In this document: one piece after another, positions 9,946-39,817 of the stretch
Layout of the letters: every line of letters begins with the position of its first letter
Position numbering within the stretch: position 1 is the stretch's first letter
Origin: Planctomycetota bacterium
GTDB lineage: Bacteria > Planctomycetota > Phycisphaerae > Sedimentisphaerales > Anaerobacaceae
NCBI GenBank assembly: GCA_014384025.1
Contig: JACNGQ010000249.1
Location: 1-44,597, forward strand
Direction of reading: 5' to 3'
Length of the DNA stretch: 44,597 nt
Position numbers and translations under genes: made by a program
Notes under the pieces: generated by a model
The model's database searches: none
What the model was told of the DNA's origin: nothing
What the model saw: only the letters and a program-made list of their open reading frames with translations

Positions 9946-10077
9946 CATAATTTGCTTATAAATTCGTACGTAAGAATTCGTAGAATTTATCTCGTGAAGC
10001 GTATTGTGTATCGCGTATTGCGTATTTTGGGCTTCGCTGGCCATTTAGAGTATTCCAAATTAAAGATGGACGATTTT

Positions 10078-22780: not shown

Positions 22781-24718
22781 TCACAAAATATGATCTGCAG
22801 TTACCGGTAAGAGATTTTGTGAAGTCTTAGGATCCAGAGGTAAAAAGACAGTAAAAGTACTGCCCCGGCCTACCTCACTTTCGACTTCAATTCTGCCGCC
22901 GTGCCTGGTCACAATTTTGTGAACAATAGAAAGGCCTAAACCTGTCCCCTGCACCTCCTCACGTTGATGTTTTGCACGGTAAAAACGCTCAAATATCTTT
23001 GGAAGCTCATATTTAGGTATTCCGAAGCCTGTATCGCTGACGCTTATAACCAATTCTTCGTTTCGATGTCGGACATTAAGACAAGCCTGTCCCCCTTTAG
23101 GTGAGAATTTAATCGCGTTACCAATCAGATTTATTAAAACCTGAACAATTCTTTCACGGTCAAATTTTGCCTGGGGTATGTCCTCAGCAAACTCATACAT
23201 CAACTCAATGCCATTTTTCTCTGCGTAGAGAACCATTGTTTCATGCACTTCCAGTGCAATCTGTTTTATATCGTTATTCTGTATATGCAGTCCTATATTT
23301 TCTGCTTCAAGCTTCTGAAAATCCAAAATATTATTAATCATATTCCCAAGCCTGTCGACATTCCTTTTTGCAATATTCAGGAATTTCTTTTGTTTTTCAT
23401 TAATCCTACCGACTACTTCATCCAGGACAATAGCGATACCTTCTTTAATAGCAGCGAGCGGCGTCCGCAGCTCGTGAGAAACTGTAGATATAAACTGCGA
23501 TTTTATCTCCATTGTCTCTTTGAGCTTTTCTTCTGCTTTCCTGCGCTCGGTCATGTCCCTGATGATGGCTATCGAATTTATGCGTTCATCTTCAGGATTT
23601 TTAAAAACACTGAGCGAAACATCGACATCGATTATGCTGCCGTCTTTTCGAATCATCGTTGTTTCTATTAAATGGTGCTGCAATCCTTTTTGCTTAACAT
23701 TACAAGCTTTTATTTTCCCCCACGCATCCGGAGGGTAAAGTGAGCTTACCTGCCTGAGAAACAGGTCTTCCCTGTCCATACCCAGCAGATCCTCAGCAAA
23801 CTTGTTCCAGGATATGAGTTTATTCTGCTCATCCGCCATCGTGATAGCAACCGCCGAATTTTCGAAAATCAACCTGTACTTCTCTTCCGCTAATCGGTGC
23901 TCGCTCTCCATCTTTTTATGTTCGGTTATGTCGTCAATCACAACAACCACATGCTTGCAGCCATCCATAATTACCGGTTTTGCACTAACACGCAGCCATA
24001 GTGTAATTTTTTTCTCATTGATTTTAAGCGTAATATGGGCTTCAACATCGTGAACGGGTTTCCCCGAATCCAACACACTTTTCAACGTTTTATATAACGG
24101 ACATTCCTGACAAAGTTGACTGTTTCGGCACGCATTCTCATTGCAGGTGCTGTTAATACATCCCAGAACATTGCCGAGTTTATGATTAATAATATGATGA
24201 TATTCTTTTTGAACCAGTTGCTTGATAGTATCATTGGCTCGAGTAACAATCATATTCTCATCGATTAACAGCATAGAACCTGGTGCCGCATCAAATATTG
24301 CCTCAAGATTCCTTTTCTTCCTTTCAAGAGCTTCCTCCATTTTTTTGTGTTCGACAGCATTTTTGATTGTTTTCGGAATAGCTTTAAGATAATTTCGTTT
24401 GATATCTTTTGTAATATAATCATAAGCACCCCTCCGCCAGGCTTGCGTGGCAACTTCTTCATCACCCACCCCGGTAACAATTATAATTGGGATATCCTTA
24501 GTAAAATCCAGTATATTAAGTGCTGTACCGTCTCCCAGCGAATAATCAGAAACTATGGCGTCAAAATCTTCGCACGCCAATATGTTATGGGCTTGTGAAA
24601 CGGATGATGCTATTTTGCATTCATACAGAGGCTTTTCATCCTTTAGAAACCGCTCGAAAGCCATCTGGTCAAACCTGTCGTCTTCAATCAATAAAATTTT
24701 ATACCGTGTATCGTCCAT
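22781..24718 (-). CDS. Receiver-PAS-PAS sensor histidine kinase
   Basis: A 645-residue soluble kinase with no membrane segment. Residues 5-120 are an N-terminal receiver with acidic pair Asp13/Asp14, phosphoacceptor Asp58 (VSDYS) and Lys104. PAS1 (about 137-265) contains a cysteine cluster C187-x4-C192-x4-C197-x5-C203-x2-C206, which could bind metal or act as a redox switch. PAS2 spans about 275-392. HisKA has STVSHELRTP with His415. The HATPase has NLIGNAIKFSP, DTGFGIP and GTGLGLSIVHK. A receiver placed before the kinase core suggests it is controlled by another kinase, perhaps the hybrid kinase at 16491. It is divergent from the secretion operon that starts at 25111 and shares its upstream region. 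Confidence 0.9.
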   Translation of the reverse strand: MDDTRYKILLIEDDRFDQMAFERFLKDEKPLYECKIASSVSQAHNILACEDFDAIVSDYSLGDGTALNILDFTKDIPIIIVTGVGDEEVATQAWRRGAYDYITKDIKRNYLKAIPKTIKNAVEHKKMEEALERKKRNLEAIFDAAPGSMLLIDENMIVTRANDTIKQLVQKEYHHIINHKLGNVLGCINSTCNENACRNSQLCQECPLYKTLKSVLDSGKPVHDVEAHITLKINEKKITLWLRVSAKPVIMDGCKHVVVVIDDITEHKKMESEHRLAEEKYRLIFENSAVAITMADEQNKLISWNKFAEDLLGMDREDLFLRQVSSLYPPDAWGKIKACNVKQKGLQHHLIETTMIRKDGSIIDVDVSLSVFKNPEDERINSIAIIRDMTERRKAEEKLKETMEIKSQFISTVSHELRTPLAAIKEGIAIVLDEVVGRINEKQKKFLNIAKRNVDRLGNMINNILDFQKLEAENIGLHIQNNDIKQIALEVHETMVLYAEKNGIELMYEFAEDIPQAKFDRERIVQVLINLIGNAIKFSPKGGQACLNVRHRNEELVISVSDTGFGIPKYELPKIFERFYRAKHQREEVQGTGLGLSIVHKIVTRHGGRIEVESEVGRGSTFTVFLPLDPKTSQNLLPVTADHIL

Positions 24719-25110: not shown

Positions 25111-26820
25111 ATGATTATGGACAAGAAATACCCATTAATTTCATTCATTATGGAAGAGGGGATTCTCGATGAGAAAATCCTTCAGACCGTGGTAGATGAA
25201 CACGAAAAGACAGGTCAAGGTCTGATAAACATACTGAAAAAGGAAAAACTTCTCGATGAAGACCAATTAGCGAAGGTTGTTGCGGGTACGAATCAAACCG
25301 AGTTTATAAATCTTTCACCTGATATGGTTGAACCGATGGTGGCCCACCTGGTGCCCTATGAGGTAGCCAGTCGTTATAATGTTATTCCGATAAAACGAGA
25401 AGGTGATCACCTGCGTGTGGCAATGAGTTCTCCTTTGAATCTTTCAGTCCGGGACCAAATCGAGATGAAGACCGGCTACAAGATTATTCCGGTTGCCGCC
25501 ACTCCGAGTGCCATAAAACGTGCGATACATTATCATTTTGACGTAACAAGTGTAACAAAGCAGGCCATTGTCTCGATGCGAATGGAGGAAGAACCTGCGC
25601 AGCGCACACAAGATGGTGAGTTCGAGCACGAAACAATAAAAGCCGACAGTTCTCCTCTTGCAAAACTGGTTTCTTCGATAGTAGATGGAGCCATCGACGC
25701 CGGGGCAAGCGATATACATATAGAGCCGCAGGACTCCGATCTAAGGGTGAGGTACCGTATCGACGGAATCTTACGTCCAACGGTCAACATGCCTTTGTCA
25801 GTACAGCAGGAGATGATCTCACACATAAAGATTATGTCGGATATGGACATTTCTGAACGAAGAGTTCCTCAAGACGGCCATATGACTACCTCCCGCAGCG
25901 GCAAGGATTATGATCTTAGAGTCTCATCGCTACCGGCAATTGGAGGAGAAAAGATAGTAATCAGGATTCTCGATAAGGACGTAGATAAGTGGTCAATTGA
26001 TGAAGTCGTTACTTCAGCAGACGATAATCAGAAATTAAGAACATTAATTGACAATCCTTATGGAATGCTTTTGCTGACCGGCCCAACCGGTTCGGGTAAG
26101 ACTACTACTCTTTATTCAATGCTTCAATTACTCAATACACCCGAAAAAAATATCGTTACTGTAGAAGATCCGGTAGAATACCGTCTCAGGGGTATTACCC
26201 AGGTTCAGGCCAGACCGGTAGCAGGCAGGACTTTTGCCCTGGCTTTGCGTAGTATCCTCCGACAGGACCCAGACATCATCCTGATAGGTGAGATTCGTGA
26301 TGCTGAAACCGCCGAAATAGCCGTCAGCGCAGCTCTGACGGGCCATTTGGTATTAAGTACTTTACATACAAATGATGCTGCAGGTGCGATTTCGCGTTTA
26401 ATTGACCTCGGAATACCGCCATTTCTCGTATCCTCTGCCCTTCTGGGAACAGCAGCCCAAAGACTTATAAGGACGTCCTGTTTAAAGTGCCGAGAGTCCT
26501 ATAAACCATCTCAAGAAGAACTAAAGCGTTTACTCGGAAATAAGCCTGATATTGATAAGAATATTGAGCTGTACCACTCCAAAGGATGCGAAAATTGCTT
26601 CCACACCGGTTATCAGGGGCGAAAAAGCATTTATGAGATATTGCGTATTTCTCGGGAAATAAGGGGGATGATCATGAATGGAAGCAGCGATCAGGTTATT
26701 AAGGAGCAGGCAATGAAAGAGGGCATGAAAATCCTTTGTGAAAACGCGGCTGATGAAGTTTTGAATGGTGTTACGACAATGGAAGAAATGATGCGAATCG
26801 TGGATATTAAGGTGGTATGA
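25111..26820 (+). CDS. gspE: Type II secretion/type IV pilus assembly ATPase (GspE/PilB-like)
   Basis: A 569-residue hexameric motor ATPase that would drive pseudopilus assembly from the cytosolic face. Residues about 1-150 are an MshEN/GspE N-terminal domain. Walker A is GPTGSGKTTT at residues 324-333. The Asp box is around VTVEDPVEYRL, Walker B is IILIGEIRDAETAEIA, and the His box is STLHTNDAAGAISRL. A tetracysteine zinc motif is near 460-510 (CLKC...CENC), as in GspE/PilB. It ends in an ATGA overlap with the next gene. A second Met two codons in is a possible start. It is the first gene of an eleven-gene operon. No PilT-type retraction ATPase is nearby, which favours a secretion-type pseudopilus over a twitching pilus. 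Confidence 0.95.
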   Translation: MIMDKKYPLISFIMEEGILDEKILQTVVDEHEKTGQGLINILKKEKLLDEDQLAKVVAGTNQTEFINLSPDMVEPMVAHLVPYEVASRYNVIPIKREGDHLRVAMSSPLNLSVRDQIEMKTGYKIIPVAATPSAIKRAIHYHFDVTSVTKQAIVSMRMEEEPAQRTQDGEFEHETIKADSSPLAKLVSSIVDGAIDAGASDIHIEPQDSDLRVRYRIDGILRPTVNMPLSVQQEMISHIKIMSDMDISERRVPQDGHMTTSRSGKDYDLRVSSLPAIGGEKIVIRILDKDVDKWSIDEVVTSADDNQKLRTLIDNPYGMLLLTGPTGSGKTTTLYSMLQLLNTPEKNIVTVEDPVEYRLRGITQVQARPVAGRTFALALRSILRQDPDIILIGEIRDAETAEIAVSAALTGHLVLSTLHTNDAAGAISRLIDLGIPPFLVSSALLGTAAQRLIRTSCLKCRESYKPSQEELKRLLGNKPDIDKNIELYHSKGCENCFHTGYQGRKSIYEILRISREIRGMIMNGSSDQVIKEQAMKEGMKILCENAADEVLNGVTTMEEMMRIVDIKVV

Positions 26821-28016
26821 TGACGGTATATGATTATACGGCAAAAGATATAAACGGGGAGAAACTCATCGGCACATATGACGATGTTGATAGTGTTGCC
26901 CAGTTGCGTCAAGAACTGGATAAGATGGGTTATTCACTGCTAAAGGCCCGCCGGCATAAGGACATAACGCCAAAGCGCAGGAAAATAAAACAATCGGAAA
27001 TCGTTACTTTCATCTATAAGTTTGCGGAGATGTATTCTGCGGGTTTGTCAATCACAAGGTCTCTTGAGGTATTAGAGGAGCAAAGCAACAATCCGGCGCT
27101 TGGGAGCATAATTACCGAGATAAGACAAAACATCGAGAACGGTTCAAGCCTGGAAAAGGCTTTTGGCAAACACCGTAATATATTTTCAGATTTTTTTTGC
27201 GGGATGGTCGAGGCCGGTGAGTCCGGCGGGAAATTGTCGGAATCTCTTGAAATGAGTGCCGTATATCTCGAAAAGCGGATGGATATGAGGCGGAAGATCA
27301 AATCCGCTTTTACTTATCCGGTGGTTGTCTGTGTTGTGTGTGTTTTGGTTGTTTCATGCCTTATAGCTTTTATCGTGCCTATCTTTTCCAAATTATACAA
27401 ACAGCTACACGTCCAGTTGCCAGGTCCTACCCAAGCTCTTGTAATCCTTAGCTCAGTACTCAGGGGCTATTGGTGGTTGCTTCCTTTTATAGCGGCAGCA
27501 GTGGGGGCGGCAGTATGGTGGCTGTTGAGAAATCCCACTGTCAGAGTCAAATGGGATATTTTCAAGCTAACAATGCCTATTCTTGGGAAAGTTAATCGTA
27601 TGATTGTGGTTTCCCATTTTATGCGAACCTTTGGAATGTTGACATCTGTGGGAATTTCACCGATCAGAGCGCTGAGTGTGGCTTCCGATGTTGCTCATAA
27701 TCACAAAATTTCCGGAATTGCTAAAGAATTGCAGGACGCCATTGAAAAAGGTCTAAGTATCGGAGAATCATTGAAAAAACACGACATCTTTCCTTCGATG
27801 ATTGTCCAGCTGGCTCTTTCCGGCGAGGAGGTTGGTCAGGTCTCTCAAATGTTGAATAAAGGCGCCGATTTTCTTGATAAAGATATCACCAGAATGGTTG
27901 ACAGTCTAATTGTGAAATTGGAGCCGGCATTAACGGTTCTTATGGGAACAATCGTCGGAATTATCCTTATGGCGGTATATTTACCAATGTTCGATTATAT
28001 GCAGCATTTAAAATAA
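26817..28016 (+). CDS. gspF: Inner-membrane platform protein (GspF/PilC-like)
   Basis: A 399-residue polytopic membrane protein that couples the ATPase to pseudopilin assembly. It has two T2SSF domains. Each helical bundle contains the pattern FxYxFAEMYSAGLSITRSL or FMRTFGMLTSVGISPIRAL with downstream GEESGGKLS/GEEVGQVSQ-like motifs. Three membrane helices are visible at about 160-185, 215-238 and 370-392. The length is typical of the family. It starts inside the gspE stop (ATGA), which indicates translational coupling. Confidence 0.95.
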   Translation: MMTVYDYTAKDINGEKLIGTYDDVDSVAQLRQELDKMGYSLLKARRHKDITPKRRKIKQSEIVTFIYKFAEMYSAGLSITRSLEVLEEQSNNPALGSIITEIRQNIENGSSLEKAFGKHRNIFSDFFCGMVEAGESGGKLSESLEMSAVYLEKRMDMRRKIKSAFTYPVVVCVVCVLVVSCLIAFIVPIFSKLYKQLHVQLPGPTQALVILSSVLRGYWWLLPFIAAAVGAAVWWLLRNPTVRVKWDIFKLTMPILGKVNRMIVVSHFMRTFGMLTSVGISPIRALSVASDVAHNHKISGIAKELQDAIEKGLSIGESLKKHDIFPSMIVQLALSGEEVGQVSQMLNKGADFLDKDITRMVDSLIVKLEPALTVLMGTIVGIILMAVYLPMFDYMQHLK

Positions 28017-28111: not shown

Positions 28112-28429
28112 ATGATGCGGAGTAATAAGGGTTTTACATTAGTTGAGTTGATGATTGTCGTTTTGATCCTCGGCGCATTAGCGGCAATTGCAATTCCAAG
28201 GATTATGGGAGGCGCACAAACCGCCAGGATAAGTGCCTGCAGTACAAATATCGATATGTTAAACTCACAGATCGAATTGTACAATGCAAACGAGGGTGTC
28301 TGGCCAGGATCTCTGGCAGTTCTAACTTCTGACCCGAACTATTTTCCCGACACCACTGCACCCACATGCCCACTCGGCACGGCTTATAATTATAATGCGA
28401 ACAATCGTATCGATCCGCACAGCCATTAG
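28112..28429 (+). CDS. gspG: Major-type pseudopilin (GspG-like), copy 1
   Basis: A 105-residue prepilin with a seven-residue leader (MMRSNKG) cleaved before FTLVELMIVV, with Glu at +5, followed by an N-terminal hydrophobic helix. The globular domain is only about 70 residues and contains NSQIELYNANEGVWP and the pair APTCPLGTAY. A Cys in the helical part (SACSTN) could form a disulphide with the Cys of TCPLG. The C-terminus is His-rich (RIDPHSH). The gene has a strong ribosome site (GAAAGGAAAGG) and its own 95-base leader after gspF. It is followed by a terminator, a layout suited to high expression of the main fibre subunit. A close paralogue follows. Confidence 0.9.
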   Translation: MMRSNKGFTLVELMIVVLILGALAAIAIPRIMGGAQTARISACSTNIDMLNSQIELYNANEGVWPGSLAVLTSDPNYFPDTTAPTCPLGTAYNYNANNRIDPHSH

Positions 28430-28488
28430 TTAATAGCTCAGTGGGCAGGTCAAAAGCAGGACCTAGTTTCTTATAGAAGTACATTAAC

Positions 28489-28525
28489 AAAGATGGCTGA
28501 CGGTCGGGTTTCAGCCATCTTTTTC
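28489..28525 (+). terminator. Rho-independent terminator inside the operon, between the two gspG-like genes
   Basis: AAAGATGGCTGA (28489-28500) pairs perfectly with TCAGCCATCTTT (28511-28522) around a CGGTCGGGTT loop, followed by TTCC. It lies 60 bases after the stop of the first pseudopilin and 20 bases before the next start. Read-through would give low expression of the minor components; termination would give excess major pseudopilin. Confidence 0.85.
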
Positions 28526-28546
28526 CTTTATTACTGAATTATACCA

Positions 28547-28924
28547 ATGAGACCAGATAAAAGACGAGCTTTCACTTTGATTGAACTGATGGTTGTCGTA
28601 TTGGTCCTCGGCGCACTGACGGCAATCGCTATTCCAAGGATTACCGGAGGCTCATTCACTGCCGGCGTCAATGTCTGCCGAAAAAATGTTGATATCATAA
28701 ACTCACAGATCGAATTGTATCATTCAAGAACCGGCTCATGGCCTGTTGACATTGGGGAAGTTATTAAAGACCCAAACTATTTTCCCGACGGCGTGCCTCG
28801 GTGCCCGTTTAAAACACCATATATATTGGTAAAGACGAACGGCAAGAATCGAGTCCCTGATCACGTGCATTTAGATAAAACATTAATAAAGAAAATCACA
28901 GAAAGTCTTCTTAGTAAAGATTAA
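28547..28924 (+). CDS. Pseudopilin (GspG-like), copy 2
   Basis: A 125-residue prepilin, paralogous to the gene just upstream. The leader ends in A/FTLIELMVVV (Ala at -1 instead of Gly), with Glu at +5. The two proteins share NSQIELY, DPNYFPD and CP[LF][GK]T segments and a His-containing tail (RVPDHVH versus RIDPHSH). This copy has 20 extra C-terminal residues. No strong ribosome site is visible, and a terminator precedes it, so it is probably made in smaller amounts. It could form a variant subunit or a minor tip component. Confidence 0.88.
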   Translation: MRPDKRRAFTLIELMVVVLVLGALTAIAIPRITGGSFTAGVNVCRKNVDIINSQIELYHSRTGSWPVDIGEVIKDPNYFPDGVPRCPFKTPYILVKTNGKNRVPDHVHLDKTLIKKITESLLSKD

Positions 28925-28928
28925 TTCA

Positions 28929-29393
28929 ATGAAATATCAAAGAGCAGCATTCAGCTTAGTTGAGCTGATAATAATAGTGACATTTCTCAGTATATTTGCA
29001 TTTATCGCCATACCGAGACTCAATTACGCCCTCATTTCAAAACAAAAAGCCGAAGCAACAGCCTGGAAAATTGTTACCGACCTTCGTCTGACACGCAGAC
29101 TTGCTATTTCAGATGCAGCGAATAATGTCAAAGGCTTTGAACTGAGTTTGATCGGTTCTGTTCCATATCATGCCTATAAAATTACAAATTTAAATACCAC
29201 CAAAATTATCTCATCACACACAACTGATTCAGCCGTTATTCTTAGCGGCCCGATCGGAATAAAATATGCGTATACTCCACTGGGAAATTTGAAACCTGCA
29301 AGTGCAAATAAGTTAATTGTCTCTGCAGAAGGCAGAAGTTTCACAATTAACGTTAATCCAGCAACAGGAATAGTAAAATGTGTCGAAAACTGA
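28929..29393 (+). CDS. Minor pseudopilin (GspH/FimT-like)
   Basis: A 154-residue prepilin with leader MKYQRAA cleaved before FSLVELIIIV (Ala at -1, Glu at +5). The hydrophobic helix is followed by a beta-rich domain with the GspH-type pattern KAEATAWKIVTDLRLTRRLAISDA. Such subunits belong to the initiating tip complex. It begins four bases after the previous stop and overlaps the next gene by 16 bases, so coupled translation is likely. The assignment to GspH rests on order in the operon and the LRLTRRLAI helix. Confidence 0.8.
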   Translation: MKYQRAAFSLVELIIIVTFLSIFAFIAIPRLNYALISKQKAEATAWKIVTDLRLTRRLAISDAANNVKGFELSLIGSVPYHAYKITNLNTTKIISSHTTDSAVILSGPIGIKYAYTPLGNLKPASANKLIVSAEGRSFTINVNPATGIVKCVEN

Positions 29394-29806
29394 CAAGATT
29401 GTTAAGAATTGAAAAACCAGCAATAAGAAAATCAGGGGGATTTACTCTCGCCGAGGTTGTTATCGCTTCGAGCATTCTGGCTATTGCAATAATTCCAATT
29501 CTAAAAGCTTTGACCAGTGCAAACGTCACTTCTTCAATGATCGAACGTAAAACAAACAGCCTCATACTCGCCCAAGGCAAACTCGATGAAATAAAGGCAC
29601 GTTCAATCTACGACTACTCAAGCTCATTTGCGGAAATCAACTCTTCTATCGAAGGTTCATACCTTTGCAATGTAGCTGATAGCTCGGTCAATGCCAACCT
29701 CAGACAGATAACCGTATCAGTCGGCGAAGACCTCAACGGCAACAGCACGCTCAATGCGGGTGAAATTGAAATTACCCTGTCCACACTCGTTGCAAAAAGA
29801 TTTTAA
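29378..29806 (+). CDS. Minor pseudopilin (GspI/PilV-like)
   Basis: A 142-residue prepilin with a longer, basic leader (about 21 residues) ending in GG/FTLAEVVIAS, with Glu at +5. The hydrophobic helix is SILAIAIIPILKAL. The LILAQGKLDEIKAR segment is the usual GspI/PilV signature after the first helix. In known systems GspI, J and K form the tip of the pseudopilus. The reading frame overlaps the upstream gene by 16 bases. A gap of about 375 bases to the next gene interrupts the tight operon spacing. Confidence 0.82.
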   Translation: MCRKLTRLLRIEKPAIRKSGGFTLAEVVIASSILAIAIIPILKALTSANVTSSMIERKTNSLILAQGKLDEIKARSIYDYSSSFAEINSSIEGSYLCNVADSSVNANLRQITVSVGEDLNGNSTLNAGEIEITLSTLVAKRF

Positions 29807-30182
29807 TCCCATGTTAGAAATAAGATGCCAGAGGTCTGCCCTGCTTTCATCAGGTAATTCGCTCGTATTCACAAAGGTATTCGCATGTTTGCGACAAGGA
29901 TTTGTAGATAAATTTATAGGACTTTTTCTTCGGCCTAAAAATTTATTTTGTGGTAACCAATAATACCCGATAAAGACGGCCAAACAACGCCAAATTGTTG
30001 AATTAATCACACTTTTTTATATTCTTTCTTTACTATTAAATAACACAAAACTAATCAAGACAAACCTTTGTTTTATGCCGAAAATAACAATCAGGAGCAG
30101 CAAAAATTTGCGCCAAAAATGTAAAGCAAAAGCGATTAATCCAGCAGGAAGGTGGGTAATCTATTATAGGTCGTTAACTGTT
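29807..30182 (+). other. Unusual spacer inside the operon; possible 50-codon frame
   Basis: This is the only long gap among otherwise overlapping genes. A 50-codon frame from ATG 29811 to 29963 (ending FLRPKNLFCGNQ) starts four bases after the gspI-like stop. It has no membrane helix or known motif and only weak ribosome-site support. It could be a repeat insertion, a decayed gene or a leader. The frame that becomes the next prepilin is open from 30075, but the prepilin leader points to a start at 30183. Confidence 0.35.
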
Positions 30183-32762
30183 ATGCCGTACAGAAACAGT
30201 ACAACACGTTCGGTCCGGGCTCTGACCCTTGTGGAGATGCTTATAGCAATGGCTATAATGGCCATTGTCTTTTCAGCCGTTGTGCCGCAGTTTAGAGTCA
30301 TACAAAACAATTGGGATTCAAAACAGGGTAATTCTGAAACACTCCAGAACGGCAGGGTCCTGATAGACTACTTAAACCGCAATCTCTCTAAAGCTGCTCG
30401 GATAACTGCTGTAAGCGGCCCGGCTGAAACCAACGGCTATATCGAATTTGAAGACAATGTTGCGAACAATCTAAGATTTGATATTAATGGTACAAGCAAC
30501 TATGTCGAGTTCGGCCCTGTCGGGACCCTTTCGGACCTGGCCGGCCCGGTCAGCCAGTTGCTTTTTACCTGCTACGATGGCAACGACTTCGATACACCAA
30601 CAACAGACGTTAACGACGTCCGCTTTATAAAAGTGCAGACAACCCTGACAAATCCGGCAGCAATAGGTCACGACAAAACATTCACCACCTATACATACCT
30701 CCGCGTCAACCCATATTCCCAGGACGAAGGGCTGGTCGGCTGGTGGAAATTCGATGAGACTTCCCAAAAAGATGCGGAAGACAGCTCCGGCTTCGGCAAC
30801 GATGGCAGATTGTACAATATGCTCGGCGACGAATGGACACCCGGCAATATTGGTGGATGTCTTAGATTTGATGGGGATAATGACTATGTAGATTGCGGGG
30901 ATGACGAAAGCCTTAACATCACTGATGAAATCACATTGTCTGCCTGGGTGTGGCACGAAGCGTTCATGATTGGTCAAATCGAGCGATACATAACGGTAAG
31001 ACCGGAAATCGCGGTGATTCGCAAGGAATCAGATGAACGACTGCATTTCTACATCAATACGGACGGCTCTTTCCGGCACCTGAGGGTCGGCGGTGTCCTT
31101 ACGGAAGGATATTGGTACCATGTTGCGGGCACCTGGGATGGGATCACACAGCGCCTGTATCTCGACGGTGTGGAGATTGACAACCAGACACCAGGTGGTG
31201 TTTTATGGGGTACTTTTTCAGGTGTACACATAAGTTCTGGTGGCGAGTCCCTTAATGGGCTCCTTGACGATGTGCGTATCTACAACCGCGCACTGAGTGC
31301 CGGGGAGATAGCATCGTTGGCTAATATCCTTACATACAAGGAACTCACCGAGACCAAAGCCGGTACCGGTGTAACATCGATTACGATTTCGACGCCCAGT
31401 GGTACCAGGGAAGGAGACTTGCTTATAGCGGCGGTCGCCACAGACGGGATTACTTCGTTCTCAATGGCCCCGCCCGCAGGTGAGGGATGGACGAAGATCA
31501 GCCTGAACAACTATAACAGCGGGGCGACGTTAGGCATCTGGTGGAAACTCGCAGATGCCTCAGAGTCGAGCAGTCACGAGTTTACCTGGTCGGGAACCCA
31601 GCAGGCCTACGGTTGGATGATGCGCTTTATGGGGCAAGACCCAATCGACCCAATTGAGATATGGACAGGCAACGGCGAAAGCAGCGTTAACCCAACCAGT
31701 CCGTCAGTGACGACGAGCGTTGACGATTGTATTATCCTGCGTCTGGGCGCTTTTGACGACGATTACATCACGCTGAATGACCCCGGGCTGAGCGGCCACA
31801 CGGCGATTACAATGGACAGCAGCAACCGCACCGATATATACTGGGCCGACGAGGAGGTCGATATGATCCGGCGAGCCGACCTTGACGGCTCGAATATCGA
31901 AGATTTGGTCACCGCTGCAGTAATGAAGCCAAGAGCCCTGGCACTGGACCTTACCGGCGGCAAGATGTATTGGGCCGACGAGGAGGTCCAGAAGATCCAG
32001 CGTGCCGACCTTGACGGCTCAAATATCGAAGACCTGGTCACCTCAGTAAATAAGCCAAGGGGCCTGGCGCTGGACATTGGGGGCGGCAAGATGTATTGGG
32101 CCGACGAGGATGTCAAGAAGATCCGACGTGCCGACCTTGACGGCTCTAATATCGAAGACCTGGTCACCTCAGTAAACAAGCCAACGGCCCTGGCGCTGGA
32201 CGTTTCCGGCGGCAAGATGTATTGGGTCAATGTGGATGTCGATAAGATCCGACGTGCCAATCTTGACGGGACGAATATCGAAGACCTGATCACCTCCGGA
32301 TCAATGAATCCAAGTGCCCTGGTCCTTGACGTTGTCGGCGGCAAGATGTATTGGGCTGACGACGGGGTAGATAAGATTCAGCGTGCCAACCTTGACGGGA
32401 CGAATATCGAAGACCTGCTCACCGGAGTAACAAGACCAAAAGCCCTGGGGGTGGATATTGCCGGCGGCAAGATGTATTGGGCCGACGAGGAGCTTGATAA
32501 GATAAGACGTGCCAACCTTGACGGCTCGAATATCGAAAACCTGATCGTCGCTGCAACAATGAAGCCAAAGGCCTTGGCGCTTGCCCTGAATGAAACGGGC
32601 AGCGGCACAGTCTCCGGTGGGGCCGGATACGTGAAACAAGCGACCAGCGGCTCCAGTGGATTGTCGAACTTCTCGCTAACCGCATCGCAGGAATCACGCG
32701 TCGTAACACTTGCCATAGCGCCGAATCCAGACAGAGGTGTGAGCGGAGGGATACAACCGTAA
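30183..32762 (+). CDS. GspJ/PilW-type minor pseudopilin fused to LamG and six-blade YWTD propeller domains
   Basis: An 859-residue protein, about four times the normal GspJ length. The prepilin leader ends in RA/LTLVEMLIAM with Glu at +5; ATG 30183 gives a 13-residue leader, and an ATG at 30075 would give 49. Residues about 14-178 are a GspJ/PilW domain. Residues about 182-380 are a LamG/concanavalin-like lectin fold (LVGWWKFDE, GSxDYVDCG-like strands, LDDVRIYNRALS). Residues about 385-549 are a beta-rich module (GDLLIAAVATDG). Residues about 551-801 hold six YWADE-type repeats with ADLDGSNIEDL, the LDL-receptor class B propeller signature. Residues 802-859 (GTVSGGAGYV...SLTAS) seem to continue the interrupted module. 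This would put a large binding head at the pseudopilus tip. Function is inferred. Confidence 0.85.
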   Translation: MPYRNSTTRSVRALTLVEMLIAMAIMAIVFSAVVPQFRVIQNNWDSKQGNSETLQNGRVLIDYLNRNLSKAARITAVSGPAETNGYIEFEDNVANNLRFDINGTSNYVEFGPVGTLSDLAGPVSQLLFTCYDGNDFDTPTTDVNDVRFIKVQTTLTNPAAIGHDKTFTTYTYLRVNPYSQDEGLVGWWKFDETSQKDAEDSSGFGNDGRLYNMLGDEWTPGNIGGCLRFDGDNDYVDCGDDESLNITDEITLSAWVWHEAFMIGQIERYITVRPEIAVIRKESDERLHFYINTDGSFRHLRVGGVLTEGYWYHVAGTWDGITQRLYLDGVEIDNQTPGGVLWGTFSGVHISSGGESLNGLLDDVRIYNRALSAGEIASLANILTYKELTETKAGTGVTSITISTPSGTREGDLLIAAVATDGITSFSMAPPAGEGWTKISLNNYNSGATLGIWWKLADASESSSHEFTWSGTQQAYGWMMRFMGQDPIDPIEIWTGNGESSVNPTSPSVTTSVDDCIILRLGAFDDDYITLNDPGLSGHTAITMDSSNRTDIYWADEEVDMIRRADLDGSNIEDLVTAAVMKPRALALDLTGGKMYWADEEVQKIQRADLDGSNIEDLVTSVNKPRGLALDIGGGKMYWADEDVKKIRRADLDGSNIEDLVTSVNKPTALALDVSGGKMYWVNVDVDKIRRANLDGTNIEDLITSGSMNPSALVLDVVGGKMYWADDGVDKIQRANLDGTNIEDLLTGVTRPKALGVDIAGGKMYWADEELDKIRRANLDGSNIENLIVAATMKPKALALALNETGSGTVSGGAGYVKQATSGSSGLSNFSLTASQESRVVTLAIAPNPDRGVSGGIQP
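31832..32585 (+). repeat. Six tandem 126-129-base repeats encoding propeller blades
   Basis: Each unit encodes YW[AV][DN]...R[AR]xLDG[ST]NIEDL...P.[AG]L.LD..GGKM in 42-43 residues. Several blocks are almost identical in DNA, such as GACCTTGACGGCTC and GGCGGCAAGATGTATTGGG, including at synonymous positions. This indicates recent duplication or ongoing gene conversion. Such arrays can expand or contract by slippage, which would change blade number. Minus-strand frames through the array are shadows. Confidence 0.9.
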
Positions 32763-32766
32763 AACT

Positions 32767-33171
32767 ATGAAAACGAAACTAAAAAATAATGGTTCGGTAC
32801 TTTTGATAACAATCTTCGCAACAGCGCTGCTGTCTGCGATTACTATCGGCATACTGCAAATGAATACCGAGGAAATACAGCTTATGCGAAATCAAATCTA
32901 CGCTGCTAAAGCCCAGGCTATCGCCGAAGCCGGCCTTAACGATGCTTTCAGCGAACTGCGCGTAGATTCGAGCTGGAACAGCGGCTTTAGCAATAAGGTC
33001 TTTGACGGCGGCTCATATACTGTGACTGTTTCGGGTATTTTACCGAATCTCACGATAACCTCGACAGGCACTTCGGTACAGGGCTTTGTTGCGAGAGTTG
33101 GAGCTGACATAAGAGTAGGAAGTATCAGCCCTTATAGAATAAGAATGGATAGTTTGAGGATAAACGAATGA
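32767..33171 (+). CDS. PilX/GspK-like minor pseudopilin
   Basis: A 134-residue protein with a short N-terminal region and a hydrophobic helix, SVLLITIFATALLSAITIGIL, then AKAQAIAEAGLNDAFSELR. The pattern of GxxLLIT and an alpha-helix with AxAEAGL is typical of PilX and GspK. The Glu at +5 is not evident, which is normal for GspK. It is shorter than GspK (usually over 300 residues), so it lacks the large K-specific insert. It starts four bases after the fusion gene and ends in an ATGA overlap with the next. It probably completes the tip complex. Confidence 0.8.
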   Translation: MKTKLKNNGSVLLITIFATALLSAITIGILQMNTEEIQLMRNQIYAAKAQAIAEAGLNDAFSELRVDSSWNSGFSNKVFDGGSYTVTVSGILPNLTITSTGTSVQGFVARVGADIRVGSISPYRIRMDSLRINE

Positions 33172-34682
33172 AATTTGCCGTCAAAACAGCACTTGGAATA
33201 GATATTTCGGACGGTATGATAAATATGGCACTGCTAAGGCAGAGCGCCAAAGGTATCGAGCTACTCAAGGCCGTCAGTGCCCCTGTTCCCAAAGGTGCAA
33301 TAACAGATGGCGACATCGAAAATCCTGCAAAACTTGCCAAAGCCATAAAGGACCTTAGGACTCGCAATAAAATACGGACCAGGCAAGCTGCGGTATCATT
33401 ATTTGCAAGACCAGTGGTTCTCCAGATTTTTGACATGCCCAAGGGAGGCATGACAAATGTCGGGCAGTTTGTTAGAAATGAACTGAAAAGCTACGTTATA
33501 TTATCGGGCATAGACTTTGCTTGCGATTTCTGCCGAACCAGCTCTGGAATGGGTCATGGAAGCCGTCTGCTTGCGGCTGCTACTGATAGTCACAACGTAG
33601 CCAAGCTTGCCCAAACAACCGATATGGCCGGCCTTAATGTCAAGATAATCGAGCCGCCGCTTTTATCCTACACCAGAGCATTATATGCAAAAAAGATAGA
33701 AGGGAAATTCGACAGCGATGTTCTCATAGCCATATTGCGCGATGGTGTTCTAAGGTTGTGTGTATTCAGAAAACAAATCCTGGATTTAGTAAGAATAGAG
33801 GATATAAGTGAAGAACAAGCCCGGCCGGATGAACTCAGCCGATGGCTTCCTGAGAAGATAAATGAGATTATACAATCTTATGATTTCGAGGTTGCGGACA
33901 GCTCCGGAAACTGGGAGATTACAGTAGTTGCAGATTGCATGGAATTACCTCAGAGCTTCGAAGAATCTTTGAAGACTGAAATTAAAAGCGAAAACGTGCA
34001 GGTCAGGAGCGGCCAAAGCATATGCCAGGACACGGTGGTTGCACAAAAGGACGGCCATGAAAAAGCCTCGTTAGTTGCTATTGGCCTGGGTATCGGGCTC
34101 TTGAATCAAAACGACAATGGTTTACGAATAAATTTAGTTCCGCCGGAATCGGCTGAGGTCAGAGCAGTCAAAAAACAATTGTTCGTAACCACAGCTATTA
34201 TCGCAGCGATGCCGTTGTTTATGGTGCTGGGCGGGACCAGCATGAGCTTGACCGCCAATAATGTTAAGGGAGACATCGCCCAGAAAAAACAGGCAGATTT
34301 GTCAGAGGATACATATACTCTGCTTAGAGAACAGGAGCTATTGGACAAACAAATCAAGCAAATATCCGACATACCCGCACGATTAAGCACCATTCTTGGT
34401 TCCCGTCCAAGTGTAAATTGGGCCAACATCCTGGAGGATGTCAGAAAACTGACCCCTAAGACCGTACGCATAATAAACCTATACAGCAGAGACAGTTCCA
34501 GGATGGCCCTGGAAGGCATGGCAATATCATATGAGACGATTCATTTGTTTGTGAAGATGCTAAACAACTCGGATTATATAAGTTCTGCTACTCTGACCGA
34601 AACAACAAAAGAAGACAAAGCGAACGATTTTATTATGTACACAATCGATTGTGAGCTCAAGCTGGAAAAGGAGGAAGGCTGA
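33168..34682 (+). CDS. PilM-PilN fusion (GspL-like) assembly protein
   Basis: A 504-residue protein that joins two pilus assembly proteins normally encoded separately. Residues about 1-320 form an actin-like PilM domain (ALGIDISDGMINMALL, then RQAAVSLFARPVVLQIFDMP and LNVKIIEPPLLSYTRAL). Residues about 335-504 form a PilN-like part: RINLVPPE just before one membrane helix (about 342-362), a coiled-coil region, then a ferredoxin-like domain (VRIINLYSRDSSRMALEGMA). The order equals GspL of type II secretion. It would recruit the ATPase to the membrane and link it to the PilO-like partner. Overlaps on both sides indicate coupled translation. Confidence 0.88.
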   Translation: MKFAVKTALGIDISDGMINMALLRQSAKGIELLKAVSAPVPKGAITDGDIENPAKLAKAIKDLRTRNKIRTRQAAVSLFARPVVLQIFDMPKGGMTNVGQFVRNELKSYVILSGIDFACDFCRTSSGMGHGSRLLAAATDSHNVAKLAQTTDMAGLNVKIIEPPLLSYTRALYAKKIEGKFDSDVLIAILRDGVLRLCVFRKQILDLVRIEDISEEQARPDELSRWLPEKINEIIQSYDFEVADSSGNWEITVVADCMELPQSFEESLKTEIKSENVQVRSGQSICQDTVVAQKDGHEKASLVAIGLGIGLLNQNDNGLRINLVPPESAEVRAVKKQLFVTTAIIAAMPLFMVLGGTSMSLTANNVKGDIAQKKQADLSEDTYTLLREQELLDKQIKQISDIPARLSTILGSRPSVNWANILEDVRKLTPKTVRIINLYSRDSSRMALEGMAISYETIHLFVKMLNNSDYISSATLTETTKEDKANDFIMYTIDCELKLEKEEG

Positions 34683-35269
34683 TGTTAGTCAAGCATCTTG
34701 TTAAAGCGAACCGTTCAACAAGATACGCAGTTTCGGCGTCACTGATTGTGATTGCAATATTGGCGATGTATAACTGGTTAGTTGCTCCACATATCGCCTA
34801 TCTGTCAGTGGTGCAGGGATATGAATCTGTTATAACCAAACTCGTAAACAAAAACAAAATTATCGACAACCATGTTAAGATCAAGAGCAAGAAGCTACAG
34901 GAATTACAGGAGAAGTCGGCAAAGCTTCAGAGCACACTGTTTACGTCCGACAAAGCGAGAGAATTTTTCAGCGATTTACAAGCCATTTCCGAACAGACAG
35001 ACTGCATGGTTTATTCGCTAAATATGGTTAAAAAAAATTCGAATGAGCCCTCAGAGAATACTTCGGGCATAGTTACCAAAAGTGCAATATTAAGCATTGT
35101 TGGATTATACAAAGACATACCGAGGTTAATACAAAGGCTGCAAGCGCGTCCCCAAAAAGTCTGGATAGACTCAATAAAAGTCCTGACCATCGAGTACAAT
35201 TCGGATCGACCCAGGTGTGATATAACTATTACTATTTGCGAAATACGGGATGAGGTGGATACCCTATGA
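34682..35269 (+). CDS. PilO/GspM-like alignment protein
   Basis: A 195-residue bitopic membrane protein. A short cytosolic tail is followed by one helix (about 16-33, YAVSASLIVIAILAMY), a long coiled coil (about 45-85), and a periplasmic ferredoxin-like domain (AREFFSDLQAISEQTDCMVYSLN...GLYKDIPRLIQRLQARPQKVWIDSIKV). The PRLIQRLQ...WIDSI segment matches PilO/GspM style. In known systems it pairs with PilN/GspL to form the inner-membrane ring. It starts within the stop of the PilM-PilN fusion (TGATG) and overlaps the secretin start by four bases. Confidence 0.85.
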   Translation: MLVKHLVKANRSTRYAVSASLIVIAILAMYNWLVAPHIAYLSVVQGYESVITKLVNKNKIIDNHVKIKSKKLQELQEKSAKLQSTLFTSDKAREFFSDLQAISEQTDCMVYSLNMVKKNSNEPSENTSGIVTKSAILSIVGLYKDIPRLIQRLQARPQKVWIDSIKVLTIEYNSDRPRCDITITICEIRDEVDTL

Positions 35270-36492
35270 ATAAACCGAAATATACAAAAAAGATTTTTCT
35301 CTTTATTATATTAACAATCTGTACGGGGTATAGTCCGACACAATCCCAGCCGACTTTAGATGCGCAGAAAATAACACAGGAAGTTGGGCGTGAAAATCCT
35401 TTTGCACAAATTCCCAGATCCGTAAAAACAGTTACTCCGATAGCTCTTCAATCTTCAGAATTAATTGAAGAAGTGCCGGAGCTGTTTGTCCAAACAATAA
35501 TGCTTAAATTTCTTGATGCTCAAAGTCTCAAGCAGGCTATAGATAAGATGTCTTCCAGACTTGGTACTATTGCAATCAATGAGAAAAACAATTCCCTGAT
35601 AGTCTGTGATACGAAGGAGCAGCTTGAAAAGATTATATCCGAGATTAAAAAGGCCGACAAAACTCCACGGCAGATTATGGTTGAGATGGTCATCGTTGAT
35701 GTACAACTGAGTGATGACACTGCAATCGGCATCAATTGGGACCTCCTCACCGACAAAGTACAGGATATGACATACAGACAAAATTTCACTACTCGCCTTG
35801 GTACAACTATTGAGAACACCGCCAATATAGGAGATGCTACGGCTTTTAATACCACCGGTCTTGGCAGTGACTTTAGCGTCATAAACGGTGATATTCGTAA
35901 CGTTGTAAGTATGCTCCAGCAGAAAAAAGACGTTGAGATTCTCGCCAGTCCCAGAATTATGGTCGTAAGCGGCAAGACAGCCTCAATCGAAGCGGTAAGA
36001 GAACTGCCCTATAACGAAGTCACAGATACATCCGCCGGTGGAAGTATGTCTTCAACAGAGTTCAAGAAAGTCGGTGTCACTCTGAATGTCACCGCAACCC
36101 TGACTGATGATAATCTGATATTTCTCAACGTTAACTCAGAACAAAACGTGGTTGTAGGGGAAAGCCTCACGGCCGTACCCATCATTGACACAAGAAACGC
36201 TAAGAGCGAGGTCTTACTTCAGGATGGTCAGGTTGTCATAATAGGTGGCCTTAGGCGACAGGAATTAACAAAAGAGACTAACCAGGTACCAATTCTTGGA
36301 GATATTCCTCTAATTGGTTTGTTATTCAGATATACTAATACGGTGGTTAACAATACCGAGTTGATAATTTTCCTATCGCCCCGTATTTACAAGGATGAAG
36401 AACCGATTCCTGCGGACGCAATGGAAAAGTTCCGGGAAATAAAAGACAGGCCGATGCCTTCGTTAAAAAAAACCGGAGACGATAAAAAATAG
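35266..36492 (+). CDS. gspD: Short secretin (GspD/PilQ-like outer-membrane channel)
   Basis: A 408-residue protein with a Sec signal peptide (about 1-28; a Cys at LTIC is not a convincing lipobox). One N-type domain is visible (about 75-140: LKFLDAQSLKQAIDKM...TIAINEKNNSLIVCDTKEQLEKI). The secretin domain follows, with RQIMVEMVIVDVQL, ASPRIMVVSGKTASI and the C-terminal hallmark VPILGDIPLIGLLF...TELIIFLSPRI. GspD and PilQ usually have two to four N-domains and over 550 residues, so this is a minimal form. It ends the operon. No GspC or pilotin is present nearby. Confidence 0.92.
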   Translation: MNKPKYTKKIFLFIILTICTGYSPTQSQPTLDAQKITQEVGRENPFAQIPRSVKTVTPIALQSSELIEEVPELFVQTIMLKFLDAQSLKQAIDKMSSRLGTIAINEKNNSLIVCDTKEQLEKIISEIKKADKTPRQIMVEMVIVDVQLSDDTAIGINWDLLTDKVQDMTYRQNFTTRLGTTIENTANIGDATAFNTTGLGSDFSVINGDIRNVVSMLQQKKDVEILASPRIMVVSGKTASIEAVRELPYNEVTDTSAGGSMSSTEFKKVGVTLNVTATLTDDNLIFLNVNSEQNVVVGESLTAVPIIDTRNAKSEVLLQDGQVVIIGGLRRQELTKETNQVPILGDIPLIGLLFRYTNTVVNNTELIIFLSPRIYKDEEPIPADAMEKFREIKDRPMPSLKKTGDDKK

Positions 36493-36656: not shown

Positions 36657-37082
36657 ATGTTTGGATTGAAATCGTCTAAAAAGGAGTCTGATACAGCTAA
36701 AATACTCATCGTTGATGATGAACCCGACTGCATTAGCATCATCCAGTGCCGTCTTGAATGGTGCCACTATGAGGTTATTACCGCCACCAATGGAAAGGAA
36801 GGGTTGGAAAAAGCTGCAAGCGAGAAACCGGATTTAATACTATTAGATACCAACATGCCCATAATGAATGGTCACGATATGCTCGAACGCATGAGAAAGG
36901 ATCGAGTATTAAAAGATATACCTGTAGTAATGGTTACCGCGATATGCGAGGCAAAAGATATAGATAGGGCCTCTTCTTTTGGTATTTCAGATTATGTTAC
37001 CAAACCTATCGATTTCACAAAACTTATCGAAAAGATATCCAATATTTTGAGGAAGAAAACTTTAGTTAGTGCGAAAAAATAG
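36657..37082 (+). CDS. Single-domain response regulator (CheY-like)
   Basis: A 141-residue receiver with no output domain. The acidic triad is DDE (Asp20, Asp21, Glu22), the phosphoacceptor is Asp64 (ILLDTNMP), the switch Thr is Thr94 (MVTA), and the conserved Lys is Lys116 (TKPID). There is a basic C-terminal tail (about 129-141). It lies just after the secretion operon. It may act as a phosphate shuttle between kinases or bind a target such as the ATPase, in the manner of pilus-linked PilG/PilH. The partner is unknown. Confidence 0.9.
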   Translation: MFGLKSSKKESDTAKILIVDDEPDCISIIQCRLEWCHYEVITATNGKEGLEKAASEKPDLILLDTNMPIMNGHDMLERMRKDRVLKDIPVVMVTAICEAKDIDRASSFGISDYVTKPIDFTKLIEKISNILRKKTLVSAKK

Positions 37083-37430
37083 ACCCGAAAGACGGTGGAA
37101 CACTACCATTTACCGTATCAAAATATAAGATATCATTGCAACAAAATTCCTCGTCCGATAAATAAGGTTTTTCAGTATAAGGCCAAAATCTGTCAACATA
37201 GTTCGTGCAATAAAACATTAAATTGAGAGTGCTTATGATGTTAAGAAGCTACCTGAATAGATAAGTATAGATATCGGCCTTATTTATGAAAGTACCTGCT
37301 TTTTTTCGCCGAAACTTTACTATGATTATATTTCATAAACATGCAGAAGCTTTCTTAATAAGAGAAGACTCCAAGACAATAAAAATCACATTAAGGTTTA
37401 AGGGGGCACAATGAATTGGAGGTATAAAAA
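37083..37430 (+). other. Intergenic region between two response-regulator genes
   Basis: About 350 AT-rich bases with no gene. An 8-base inverted repeat, ATAAGGCC (37177-37184) and GGCCTTAT (37276-37283), is separated by 91 bases. A good ribosome site (GGAGG) precedes the next start. Some separate promoter is likely. Confidence 0.4.
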
Positions 37431-37844
37431 ATGGAAACGAGAACTGTATTGTTCGTGGACGATGACAGAATCGTCCTTCGTTCCTTAGAAAGAGGCCTTC
37501 TATACGAACCTTATAATAAACTTTTTGCTAATAGTGCTAAAATAACACTCGAAATACTCCAGCAGGAAAAAGTTCATGTAATCGTAACCGATATGTGTAT
37601 GCCTGATATGGACGGACTCGAACTTCTTCAAATCGTTGACAAAAAGTATCCCCACATCGTAAAGATAGTGCTCTCGGGATATGCTGACCAGGACACTGTC
37701 CAGCAGGCAATCCATCAGGGAGATATTTTTAAGTTCATACGTAAGCCATGGAAACTCGAAGAAAACTTCAAAGAAATTATCCTGGAGGCCATAGATCGCT
37801 ACAACCTCCAGCGTGAACACACGACTGTCGGGCAGCAGAGTTAG
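37431..37844 (+). CDS. Single-domain response regulator (RpfG-type receiver)
   Basis: A 137-residue receiver with acidic pair Asp10/Asp11, phosphoacceptor Asp54 (VTDMCMPDMDG), switch Ser82 (LSGY) and Lys105 in the motif IRKPW. The KPW ending is typical of receivers found in RpfG-type regulators and in partners of HEMNTP-type kinases such as the next gene. No HD-GYP output domain is attached. GGAGG lies about eight bases before the ATG. It is likely the cognate substrate of the kinase at 38003, which starts about 160 bases downstream. Confidence 0.9.
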   Translation: METRTVLFVDDDRIVLRSLERGLLYEPYNKLFANSAKITLEILQQEKVHVIVTDMCMPDMDGLELLQIVDKKYPHIVKIVLSGYADQDTVQQAIHQGDIFKFIRKPWKLEENFKEIILEAIDRYNLQREHTTVGQQS

Positions 37845-37917
37845 AATAGAGTAAAATCAAACTCAGTCGGCAAATTCCGGTAGGAAGAAACTTCAGGAAG
37901 CCAATATAAAGGAAGGT

Positions 37918-38001
37918 ATGAGAATTGAAGAAAAAAATAAAGGATTAATAGCAATCCAGTTTGTTTGGTATTGGCGTAAAACCAAAGATAGGGATTTTTG
38001 A
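37918..38001 (+). CDS. Possible 27-codon leader peptide upstream of the sensor kinase
   Basis: The ATG at 37918 has an almost perfect ribosome site (AAGGAAGG). The frame encodes MRIEEKNKGLIAIQFVWYWR and seven more residues. Its TGA (37999-38001) ends one base before the kinase ATG at 38003, which has only a weak ribosome site of its own. This layout suits translational coupling. The peptide has no known family. The alternative is that the kinase begins upstream in its own frame at TTG 37961. Confidence 0.45.
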   Translation: MRIEEKNKGLIAIQFVWYWRKTKDRDF

Positions 38002-38002
38002 G

Positions 38003-39817
38003 ATGCGAATAAGCCAGAGATTAATTCTTGGTTTTTTAGCTATTGCGATGTGGGTTGCAGTCGTAGGGCATATTTCACTGTACCAACTAAATCAAATTTC
38101 TGATCCCTTGAATAGTAAGATACCGGAAAGTGTAGAATCAATAGGCAAGACAGCATATTTAGACGGCTTAGCTCAAGTCATGCGTTACTATAATGAGGTC
38201 TTAACTCAATCTGCAAGAAATTATGCATTCACTCAAGATAAGAAATGGGAGCAACGCTACAAAGATTTCAGATCAAAATTGTCTCAAGTAATAAAGAACG
38301 CAATTGATAATGGAGAAGAAAAAGACCGCGAATTCTTTTTAAATATTGGACAAATAAATCTTGCCCATGTGGAGATGGAATCTAAATCCATCGAACTCGT
38401 TAATAATGGGCAACCCAAGGAGGCCATCAATATATTAGAGAGCAGCATCTATTGGGATCAAAAAAGGAGTGTTGAACAAGACCTTGAAAATTATGTCAGC
38501 AGGAGAGGGATACAATATGACGAAGCGCTTTCTAATTCTACCAGGGCAGTAACTTTGGCGACAGAACGAGCGCAATATTTAATCAAAACCAGTACACGGT
38601 TAATATTAATTTTTGGTGTAGTCGCTCTGTCTATATCTATCGGAGCAGGCTTATTGATCTCTCGCTCCATCTATGTACCCCTGCTCAAACTTAAAGCTGC
38701 CGCTGTTGAAATAGGCAAGGGTAAACTAAACACTCAAATAGAGGTTAAATCAAATGATGAAGTTGGCCAGCTTGCGACTTCTTTCAAAATAATGCTTAAC
38801 GATTTACGAAAGACAACTACTTCTATAGATAATCTCAACCGAGAAATAACAGAGCGCAGAAAAGCCGAGGAGAATGTGAGGCACGCTTATGAAGATCTCG
38901 AAAAGGCCAATCAAGAGTTGAAAGAAATGCAGTCTCAACTTGTTCAAAGCGAGAAACTATCATCCATTGGGCAACTCGCTGCAGGAGTTGCGCACGAGAT
39001 GAATACTCCAGTGGGCTTTGTCGCCAGTAATTTCGAGACACTGGAAATTTATATGGGAAAATTCCAGGAATTGCTTCAAATGTACGACGAACTTTTCGAG
39101 AAAATTGAAACTTCAGATAAAGCAGTACTGTTGGACAGAGTGGACGCCATAAGCAAATCCCGGAATGAGATGAAAATCGATTTTATTATGGAAGACCTAT
39201 CGGTATTGTTTAATGATTCAAGGGAAGGGATTGACCGGGTCACCCGTATCGTCCAGAATCTCAGAGACTTCTCGAGAATAGACCAGCCGGAAAACTTCGA
39301 CATATATAACATCAATGACGGGATTAAGACTACTCTGGTTGTGGCGCAGAATGAAATAAAAAACGATGCCGATGTCGAGATGGAGCTTTCCGAAGTACCT
39401 GATATTATCTGTAACACAGGCCAGATAAACCAGGTGCTTCTCAATATTATCATGAATGCCACTCAGGCAATAAAATCTCAGGAAAGAAACGACAAAGGAA
39501 CAATCACAATCAGGACATATACAATGGATGGTGACGTAGTCTGTGAAATCTCCGATGACGGTCCGGGTATCGAGCCTGATTGGTTAGATAAGATATTCGA
39601 TCCTTTCTTTACAACCAAGCCGATCGGTCAAGGCACGGGGCTGGGATTAAGTATCTCGTATGATATTATCGTAAACAAGCATAAAGGCATACTTCTTGTT
39701 GATAATTCTGTCGGCAATGGGACAAAATTCACAATAAAACTGTCAATTAACAAGAAAAGCGGGAAAAAAGAATTGGAGAAAGAAAACAGCAGAAAAGAGG
39801 ACAGTATTATTTGTTGA
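38003..39817 (+). CDS. Membrane sensor histidine kinase (TM-sensor-TM-HAMP-HisKA-HATPase)
   Basis: A 604-residue kinase counted from ATG 38003; the frame is open from a TTG at 37961. TM1 is about residues 6-24 and TM2 about 200-219. Between them is a helical extracytoplasmic sensor with NEVLTQSARNYAFTQ and WEQRYKDF, resembling the sensor of the kinase at 16491. A HAMP domain follows (about 220-270), then a coiled coil. The HisKA has GVAHEMNTPVGFVASN with His331. The HATPase has LNIIMNATQAI, DDGPGIE and GTGLGLSISYDII. The HEMNTPVGF type is often paired with RpfG-type receivers, which fits the regulator just upstream. The signal is unknown; presence of the shared sensor suggests a ligand common to both kinases. 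Confidence 0.9.
   Translation: MRISQRLILGFLAIAMWVAVVGHISLYQLNQISDPLNSKIPESVESIGKTAYLDGLAQVMRYYNEVLTQSARNYAFTQDKKWEQRYKDFRSKLSQVIKNAIDNGEEKDREFFLNIGQINLAHVEMESKSIELVNNGQPKEAINILESSIYWDQKRSVEQDLENYVSRRGIQYDEALSNSTRAVTLATERAQYLIKTSTRLILIFGVVALSISIGAGLLISRSIYVPLLKLKAAAVEIGKGKLNTQIEVKSNDEVGQLATSFKIMLNDLRKTTTSIDNLNREITERRKAEENVRHAYEDLEKANQELKEMQSQLVQSEKLSSIGQLAAGVAHEMNTPVGFVASNFETLEIYMGKFQELLQMYDELFEKIETSDKAVLLDRVDAISKSRNEMKIDFIMEDLSVLFNDSREGIDRVTRIVQNLRDFSRIDQPENFDIYNINDGIKTTLVVAQNEIKNDADVEMELSEVPDIICNTGQINQVLLNIIMNATQAIKSQERNDKGTITIRTYTMDGDVVCEISDDGPGIEPDWLDKIFDPFFTTKPIGQGTGLGLSISYDIIVNKHKGILLVDNSVGNGTKFTIKLSINKKSGKKELEKENSRKEDSIIC

Follow-up and report, generated by a model that had tools for sequence, protein, structure and literature searches.

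A probable modular minor pilin of Sedimentisphaerales with a YWTD propeller nested in an exchangeable head

Modular pilins, in which a class III leader and a pilin module are joined to a large C-terminal module that is not pilus specific, are a described class with 264 architectures (Raynaud et al. 2021, PMC8179133). The LamG family, PF13385, counts as one of their 15 commonest modules (PMC8179133, PMC9934059). A solved precedent is S. sanguinis PilC, which has a glycan-binding ConA-like lectin module and a proposed tip location, and in type IV filaments the tip complex is built from a complete HIJK set (PMC9934059). The Saccharibacteria minor pilin PilX2, a proposed tip adhesin, has a C-terminal seven-bladed propeller and is required for T4P-2 function (PMC12206443). 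ComZ of Thermus is a tip pilin altered by the insertion of a large domain and has been proposed as a DNA receptor for competence (PMC6561018), and the PilY1/PilC tip adhesins have a propeller fold and present a variable adhesive portion at the tip of the pilus (PMC13190605). The order Sedimentisphaerales, from which the DNA studied here derives, is among the richest of its phylum in polysaccharide-degrading enzymes (PMC11131199), and according to a citation in the same source, type IV pili of another planctomycete, Fimbriiglobus ruber, are reported to aid chitin adhesion.

The protein of 859 amino acids described here, referred to as the J pilin, belongs to the modular pilins as an unusually variable and nested form; it has a class III leader, and its extra modules PF13385 and PF00058 are not pilus specific. 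Leader, pilin module, and a large C-terminal module of this kind are shared with S. sanguinis PilC, but the J pilin has three domains, one of them nested, includes a YWTD propeller, and bears a head that varies by species at one conserved operon position. Like PilX2, it is a minor pilin with a C-terminal β-propeller; that of PilX2, however, is a seven-bladed RCC1 propeller on a protein with no predicted PilD signal, whereas that of the J pilin is a six-bladed YWTD propeller set inside another domain. In ComZ, a single domain is inserted into the pilin sheet itself and DNA binding is the proposed role. PilY1 is no pilin, and the propeller (PF05567) is what is conserved in it, while in the J pilin the propeller forms some of the variable portion; PF05567 was not among the Pfam matches of the 859-aa protein and was found nowhere in the genome, and control genomes were silent as well. 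As far as our tools reach, four things are new: the presence of a YWTD propeller on a pilin, for which a published protein combining N_methyl and Ldl_recept_b may nevertheless exist; the nesting of one head domain inside another; a single insertion slot that is used repeatedly; and frequent exchange of heads at one syntenic gene across an order.

The window, that is, the whole stretch of 44,597 nucleotides analyzed here, contains the J pilin gene and its operon on the forward strand. The open frame spans 30075..32762 (895 codons), and a start at 30183, which yields 859 amino acids, is favored because orthologues begin at the equivalent position (MPYRN..LTLVEM against MRYRN..LTLVEM). The single frame of 859 residues proposed in an earlier sequence-only reading is intact. 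The leader reads MPYRNSTTRSVRA, followed by LTLVEMLIAMAIMAIVF, with glutamate at +5, and a Pfam profile search of the 859-aa protein identifies it as a class III prepilin leader (N_methyl, E 2e-5), in agreement with that reading. On the basis of this match, alignment, and homologues, the leader (MPYRNSTTRSVRA / LTLVEMLIA) and a pilin module of ~165 amino acids in the J position are assigned to 30183..30716. The hydrophobic α1 of the module forms a helix at residues 10-68 in an AlphaFold2 model, in which the pilin part as a whole appears, at low confidence, as a long helix and a sheet. The module had been called GspJ/PilW-like, which suits its place in the gene order; a search of 12 members of the pilin-module family against family models, with fast filters that may drop weak matches, gave no GspJ or PilW match at E ≤ 1, and weak ComGE-like matches were obtained. 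The letter J is therefore a statement about position.

The surrounding operon was assigned with family models and comprises an assembly ATPase (PilB/GspE) with an inner-membrane platform protein (PilC/GspF) at 25111..28016; two major-pilin-like genes followed by H-like and I-like minor pilins at 28112..29806; the J pilin; a short K-like minor pilin at 32767..33171 (NCBIfam GspK, E 4e-5), which lacks Glu+5 and reads NNG-SVLLITIF in this region; and a PilM-PilN fusion, a gene in the PilO position, and a short secretin at 33168..36492. Pfam matches within it include PilM_2, PilN, and Secretin, and the PilM-like and PilN-like domains share one reading frame at 33168-34682. In most of the loci fetched, the order E-F-G-H-I-J-K-PilMN-O-secretin is conserved around the J homologue, with J as the third gene of the H-I-J-K set, preceded by the I-like gene and followed by the K-like gene without Glu+5. 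Sensor kinases and single receiver-domain proteins flank the operon on both sides (16491-19430, 22781-24718, and 36657-39817), a Heparinase II/III-like protein is encoded downstream at 39955-41937, and a DUF1559-type prepilin (SBP_bac_10 with N_methyl) lies away from the operon at 1157-1963.

The machine built by this operon could be a type II secretion system (T2SS), in which case the head would be a substrate receptor at the pseudopilus tip, capturing CAZymes or other cargo for export. GspG-like pilins are present, matches to GspF, GspI, and GspK models range from weak to good, the genome comes from a polysaccharide-degrading group (PMC11131199), and pilT is absent from the operon. We nevertheless regard this as unlikely. 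PilM and PilN domains are present, PilB slightly outscores GspE for the ATPase (571 vs 550 bits) and PilQ outscores GspD for the secretin (195 vs 186 bits), with PilB, PilQ, and GspD/E/F all below the NCBIfam equivalog cut-offs, and four PilT-like genes are found elsewhere in the genome, as are about eleven further PilB/GspE-like stretches. In addition, the periplasm and the secretin would have to accommodate a head made of several large domains, and carbohydrate-binding families recur among the heads. Given the PilM and PilN domains and the slightly higher PilQ and PilB scores, the machine resembles a type IV pilus no less than a T2SS and, judged from its genes, is best called a filament of the type IV pilus/T2SS family, nearer a pilus. 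The earlier remark that no standard T2SS component is known with this architecture needs to be read in that light, and large heads on minor pilins had already been described.

Following the pilin module, a LamG or ConA-like lectin domain is encoded at 30717..31325 (residues 180-383). It matches PF13385 (Laminin_G_3) with 83 bits and E 2.6e-23, against a curated cut-off of 27.6 bits, and is modeled by AlphaFold2 with a pLDDT of ~90. The six-bladed YWTD (LDL-receptor class B) β-propeller at 31827..32591 is recognized by Pfam above its cut-off (Ldl_recept_b, PF00058, 123 bits, E 4.6e-36) and by six repeats at the DNA level, spaced 126-129 nucleotides apart and 60-79% identical to the first. The matches of leader, LamG, and propeller are all far beyond chance. 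A phmmer search of PDB sequences found LDLR/LRP propellers at E 1e-20 to 1e-140, and the AlphaFold2 model shows a closed six-bladed YWTD propeller in which 24 strands at residues 551-801 form six four-stranded blades (pLDDT ~95); compared with LRP4, LRP6, and LDLR by Foldseek and VIA-align, this model gives Z 35-39 and an rmsd of 1.3-1.9 Å, with 22-31% sequence identity. The LamG region and the propeller of six blades, both called from the letters of the DNA alone, are thereby corroborated. Unlike the propellers of the LDL receptor and LRP, the bacterial one is without EGF modules and is set inside a β-sandwich.

This predicted β-sandwich is a third extra domain, which the earlier list of leader, LamG, and propeller, correct in itself, had overlooked. 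Designated JR here, it comprises ~205 amino acids after LamG, is without a Pfam family, and is divided by the propeller into an N-terminal part at 31326..31826, ending ..GHTAITMDSSN, and a C-terminal part at 32592..32723 (..VSGGAGYVKQ..VVTLAIAP), corresponding to residues 382-548 and 804-847. Both parts were assigned by alignment with homologues. Relatives of JR occur in viral contigs and phage proteins and include two annotated minor tail proteins of Rhodococcus phages, and JR is a candidate new domain family. For one of the phage relatives, the model is all-β (mean pLDDT 71, pTM 0.76); its best match among PDB structures was a phage baseplate protein at an unconvincing E 0.17, and a profile search of the PDB for JR gave no match. 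A stand-alone JR-type β-sandwich protein, also without a Pfam family, is encoded on a viral contig (L227:1441-2112).

JR is uninterrupted in L054, where the slot is empty. The slot has the sequence GHTAITMDxS, insert, SGGAGYxxQ, and aligns to residues ~165-172 of the phage JR model, just before a strand at 172-180 and next to a stretch (157-167) with pLDDT below 50. Whole domains recur at this one site: a second JR in L057, L060, L123, L161, L162, and both L146 copies; a "FEDDFE" domain in L062, L064, and L070, for which "MAM-like" is a description and not a family match; another domain in L149; and the YWTD propeller in the 859-aa J pilin alone. Each of these may have been inserted independently, or one ancient insert may have been replaced by others. 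The ends of a closed propeller are neighbors, and such a domain can be inserted in a loop while leaving its host undisturbed; it is therefore conceivable that the JR fold stays intact around the propeller. In L146, a propeller of seven repeats is itself split into three and four by LamG-JR(JR)-JR, giving three levels of domain nesting, and two tandem copies of this arrangement lie at 2233-5790 and 6969-10466. In G047 (L066, L230) and G059 (L073), JR is found in another frame directly behind a pilin-LamG frame, which reflects either a sequencing frameshift or a broken head.

Among 161 genomes of the order, a profile search found the pilin module in 75, and of 397 genomes drawn evenly across the class, 52 gave a match, all from that one order; L050 ("Phycisphaerae bacterium isolate CSMAG_2302"), which is identical to L133, is among the matching genomes. 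Across ~80 homologues of this single order of Phycisphaerae, the pilin module and its neighbors are kept while at least ten kinds of head are found. When 81 usable pilin modules were classed with profiles built from the heads themselves, 21 carried a propeller of seven ~52-aa repeats ("WAVV"), 12 LamG and JR, 11 a DUF7305-like head, and nine LamG; seven had no head, three had JR alone, and two combined the seven-repeat propeller with LamG and JR. Two further unnamed head families account for six and five modules, a small unnamed family for two, and other heads for three. Named carbohydrate-binding families among the remaining heads are CBM9 (L127), CBM96 (L166), and GH115_C (L052).

A tree built from 83 pilin modules requires at least 36 changes of head label, or 29 when "none" and "other" are left out, whereas shuffled labels need 56, which indicates that heads are partly inherited yet often changed. 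Pairs with 68-76% pilin identity differ in their heads, as do the 859-aa J pilin and its sister L052, the pilin modules of which are 76% identical. Conservation of the fusion in relatives, raised as a check on the sequence-only reading, is consequently not what we observe, since the same gene bears different heads in other genomes and YWTD occurs in the 859-aa J pilin alone among the ~80 homologues. Conservation within the genus was likewise rejected, the L052 head consisting of LamG plus GH115_C, and so was the idea that relatives carry these domains as separate genes, because the other heads are found on the same gene.

It could be speculated from ComZ, in which a tip pilin has gained a large domain by insertion, and from the weak ComGE-like matches of the pilin module that the head serves as a DNA receptor for competence (PMC6561018). 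We consider this very improbable, as the named heads belong mostly to lectin or carbohydrate-binding families and vary strongly by species, a variation that a generic DNA receptor would not need.

The J pilin is instead probably a minor pilin of the modular kind, which belongs to a filament of the type IV pilus/T2SS family and bears an exchangeable adhesin head that binds polysaccharide or particle surfaces. Its pilin module would occupy the J position of an HIJK tip complex, and the rest of the protein would form an outward-facing adhesive head, LamG first and then JR holding the propeller in one loop. At the tip, this head may bind polysaccharide or other particle-surface ligands outside the cell. 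The large ligand-binding tip head suggested earlier agrees with the gene order, a complete HIJK set, and with the sugar-binding families in orthologous heads; the tip location is deduced from HIJK order and bulk, the ligand class is predicted from the families of the heads, and adhesion is the putative function. LamG and YWTD domains can also bind proteins or serve as spacers. In the course of evolution, pilin module, operon, and the short tail at the C-terminus stay constant, while the head is replaced, duplicated, or enlarged by whole-domain insertion, with the JR loop as a recurrent slot; a change of head would retarget the same filament from species to species. The tail, at 32724..32759 by alignment of homologues, ends hydrophobic-x-Pro (IQP). 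This ending is found in 51 of 79 homologues with a head and a terminal proline in 57 of 79, across unrelated head classes, against 0 to 19% with a proline ending in other operon proteins, counts that come from related sequences and hence are not independent.

A chimeric origin of the propeller, or of the entire head, through faulty assembly of a metagenome bin is scarcely credible: the genome is indeed fragmented (448 contigs, 4.4% contamination) and YWTD occurs in no other homologue, but the frame is intact and the operon conserved on both sides, the insertion lies exactly at the slot that other domains use in other genomes, and misassembly at the repeat array was rejected as unlikely because YWTD matches nowhere else in the genome, the repeats are divergent (60-79% DNA identity), and the flanking JR halves are continuous in relatives.

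The modules appear to differ in origin. In 61 related genomes, the seven-repeat propeller was found on the J pilin gene and nowhere else, and so was JR except for one weak case. By comparison, about 80 LamG stretches occur in the genome of the 859-aa J pilin, and the LamG of the pilin is 57-60% identical to that of a non-pilin secreted protein of the same genome but shares only 40% with the LamG of its orthologue within the genus, the pilin modules of the two orthologues being 76% identical. YWTD is rare, found in six of 294 genomes across the phylum at a strict limit. In relatives, YWTD propellers belong to secreted proteins, some of which have dockerin-like ends; no prepilin-like start was seen in the five other phylum YWTD frames with a readable start, and no YWTD relatives were found in viral contigs. 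From this occurrence on and off the J pilin gene, JR and the seven-repeat propeller look tip specific, and LamG and YWTD look recruited from a general pool of secreted proteins.

We judge the chances to be roughly even that, in this order, the J minor pilin serves specifically as a mount for interchangeable tools at the tip, in which the tip-specific JR, a relative of a phage tail-protein domain, accepts whole domains in one fixed loop and the filament is retargeted by lineage. If so, nested heads (propeller, second JR, or MAM-like domain) would let each lineage retarget one machine. With the conserved neighbors as a ruler, the rate and steps by which a tip binding tool changes become visible at one gene, including insertion of a domain within a domain at one repeated site. 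The idea of modular pilins thereby becomes a testable comparison, in which the same machine carries dozens of natural heads whose ligands can be matched with habitat, and the insertion slot suggests how bulky domains may join a pilin without disturbing assembly.

Several genomes carry more than one copy of the gene. Three copies lie in tandem in L159, with JR, LamG, and L053-type heads, and those bearing JR and LamG pair as sisters in a quick tree (SH-aLRT 96). In L161, one tandem copy has the seven-repeat propeller and one has LamG and JR, and further tandem copies are present in L056, L135, and L146. A short relic of a second J pilin module (L080:520-756; G000:C429), 76% identical over 38 amino acids, lies on another contig of the genome of the 859-aa J pilin, with a LamG protein ~3.5 kb away.
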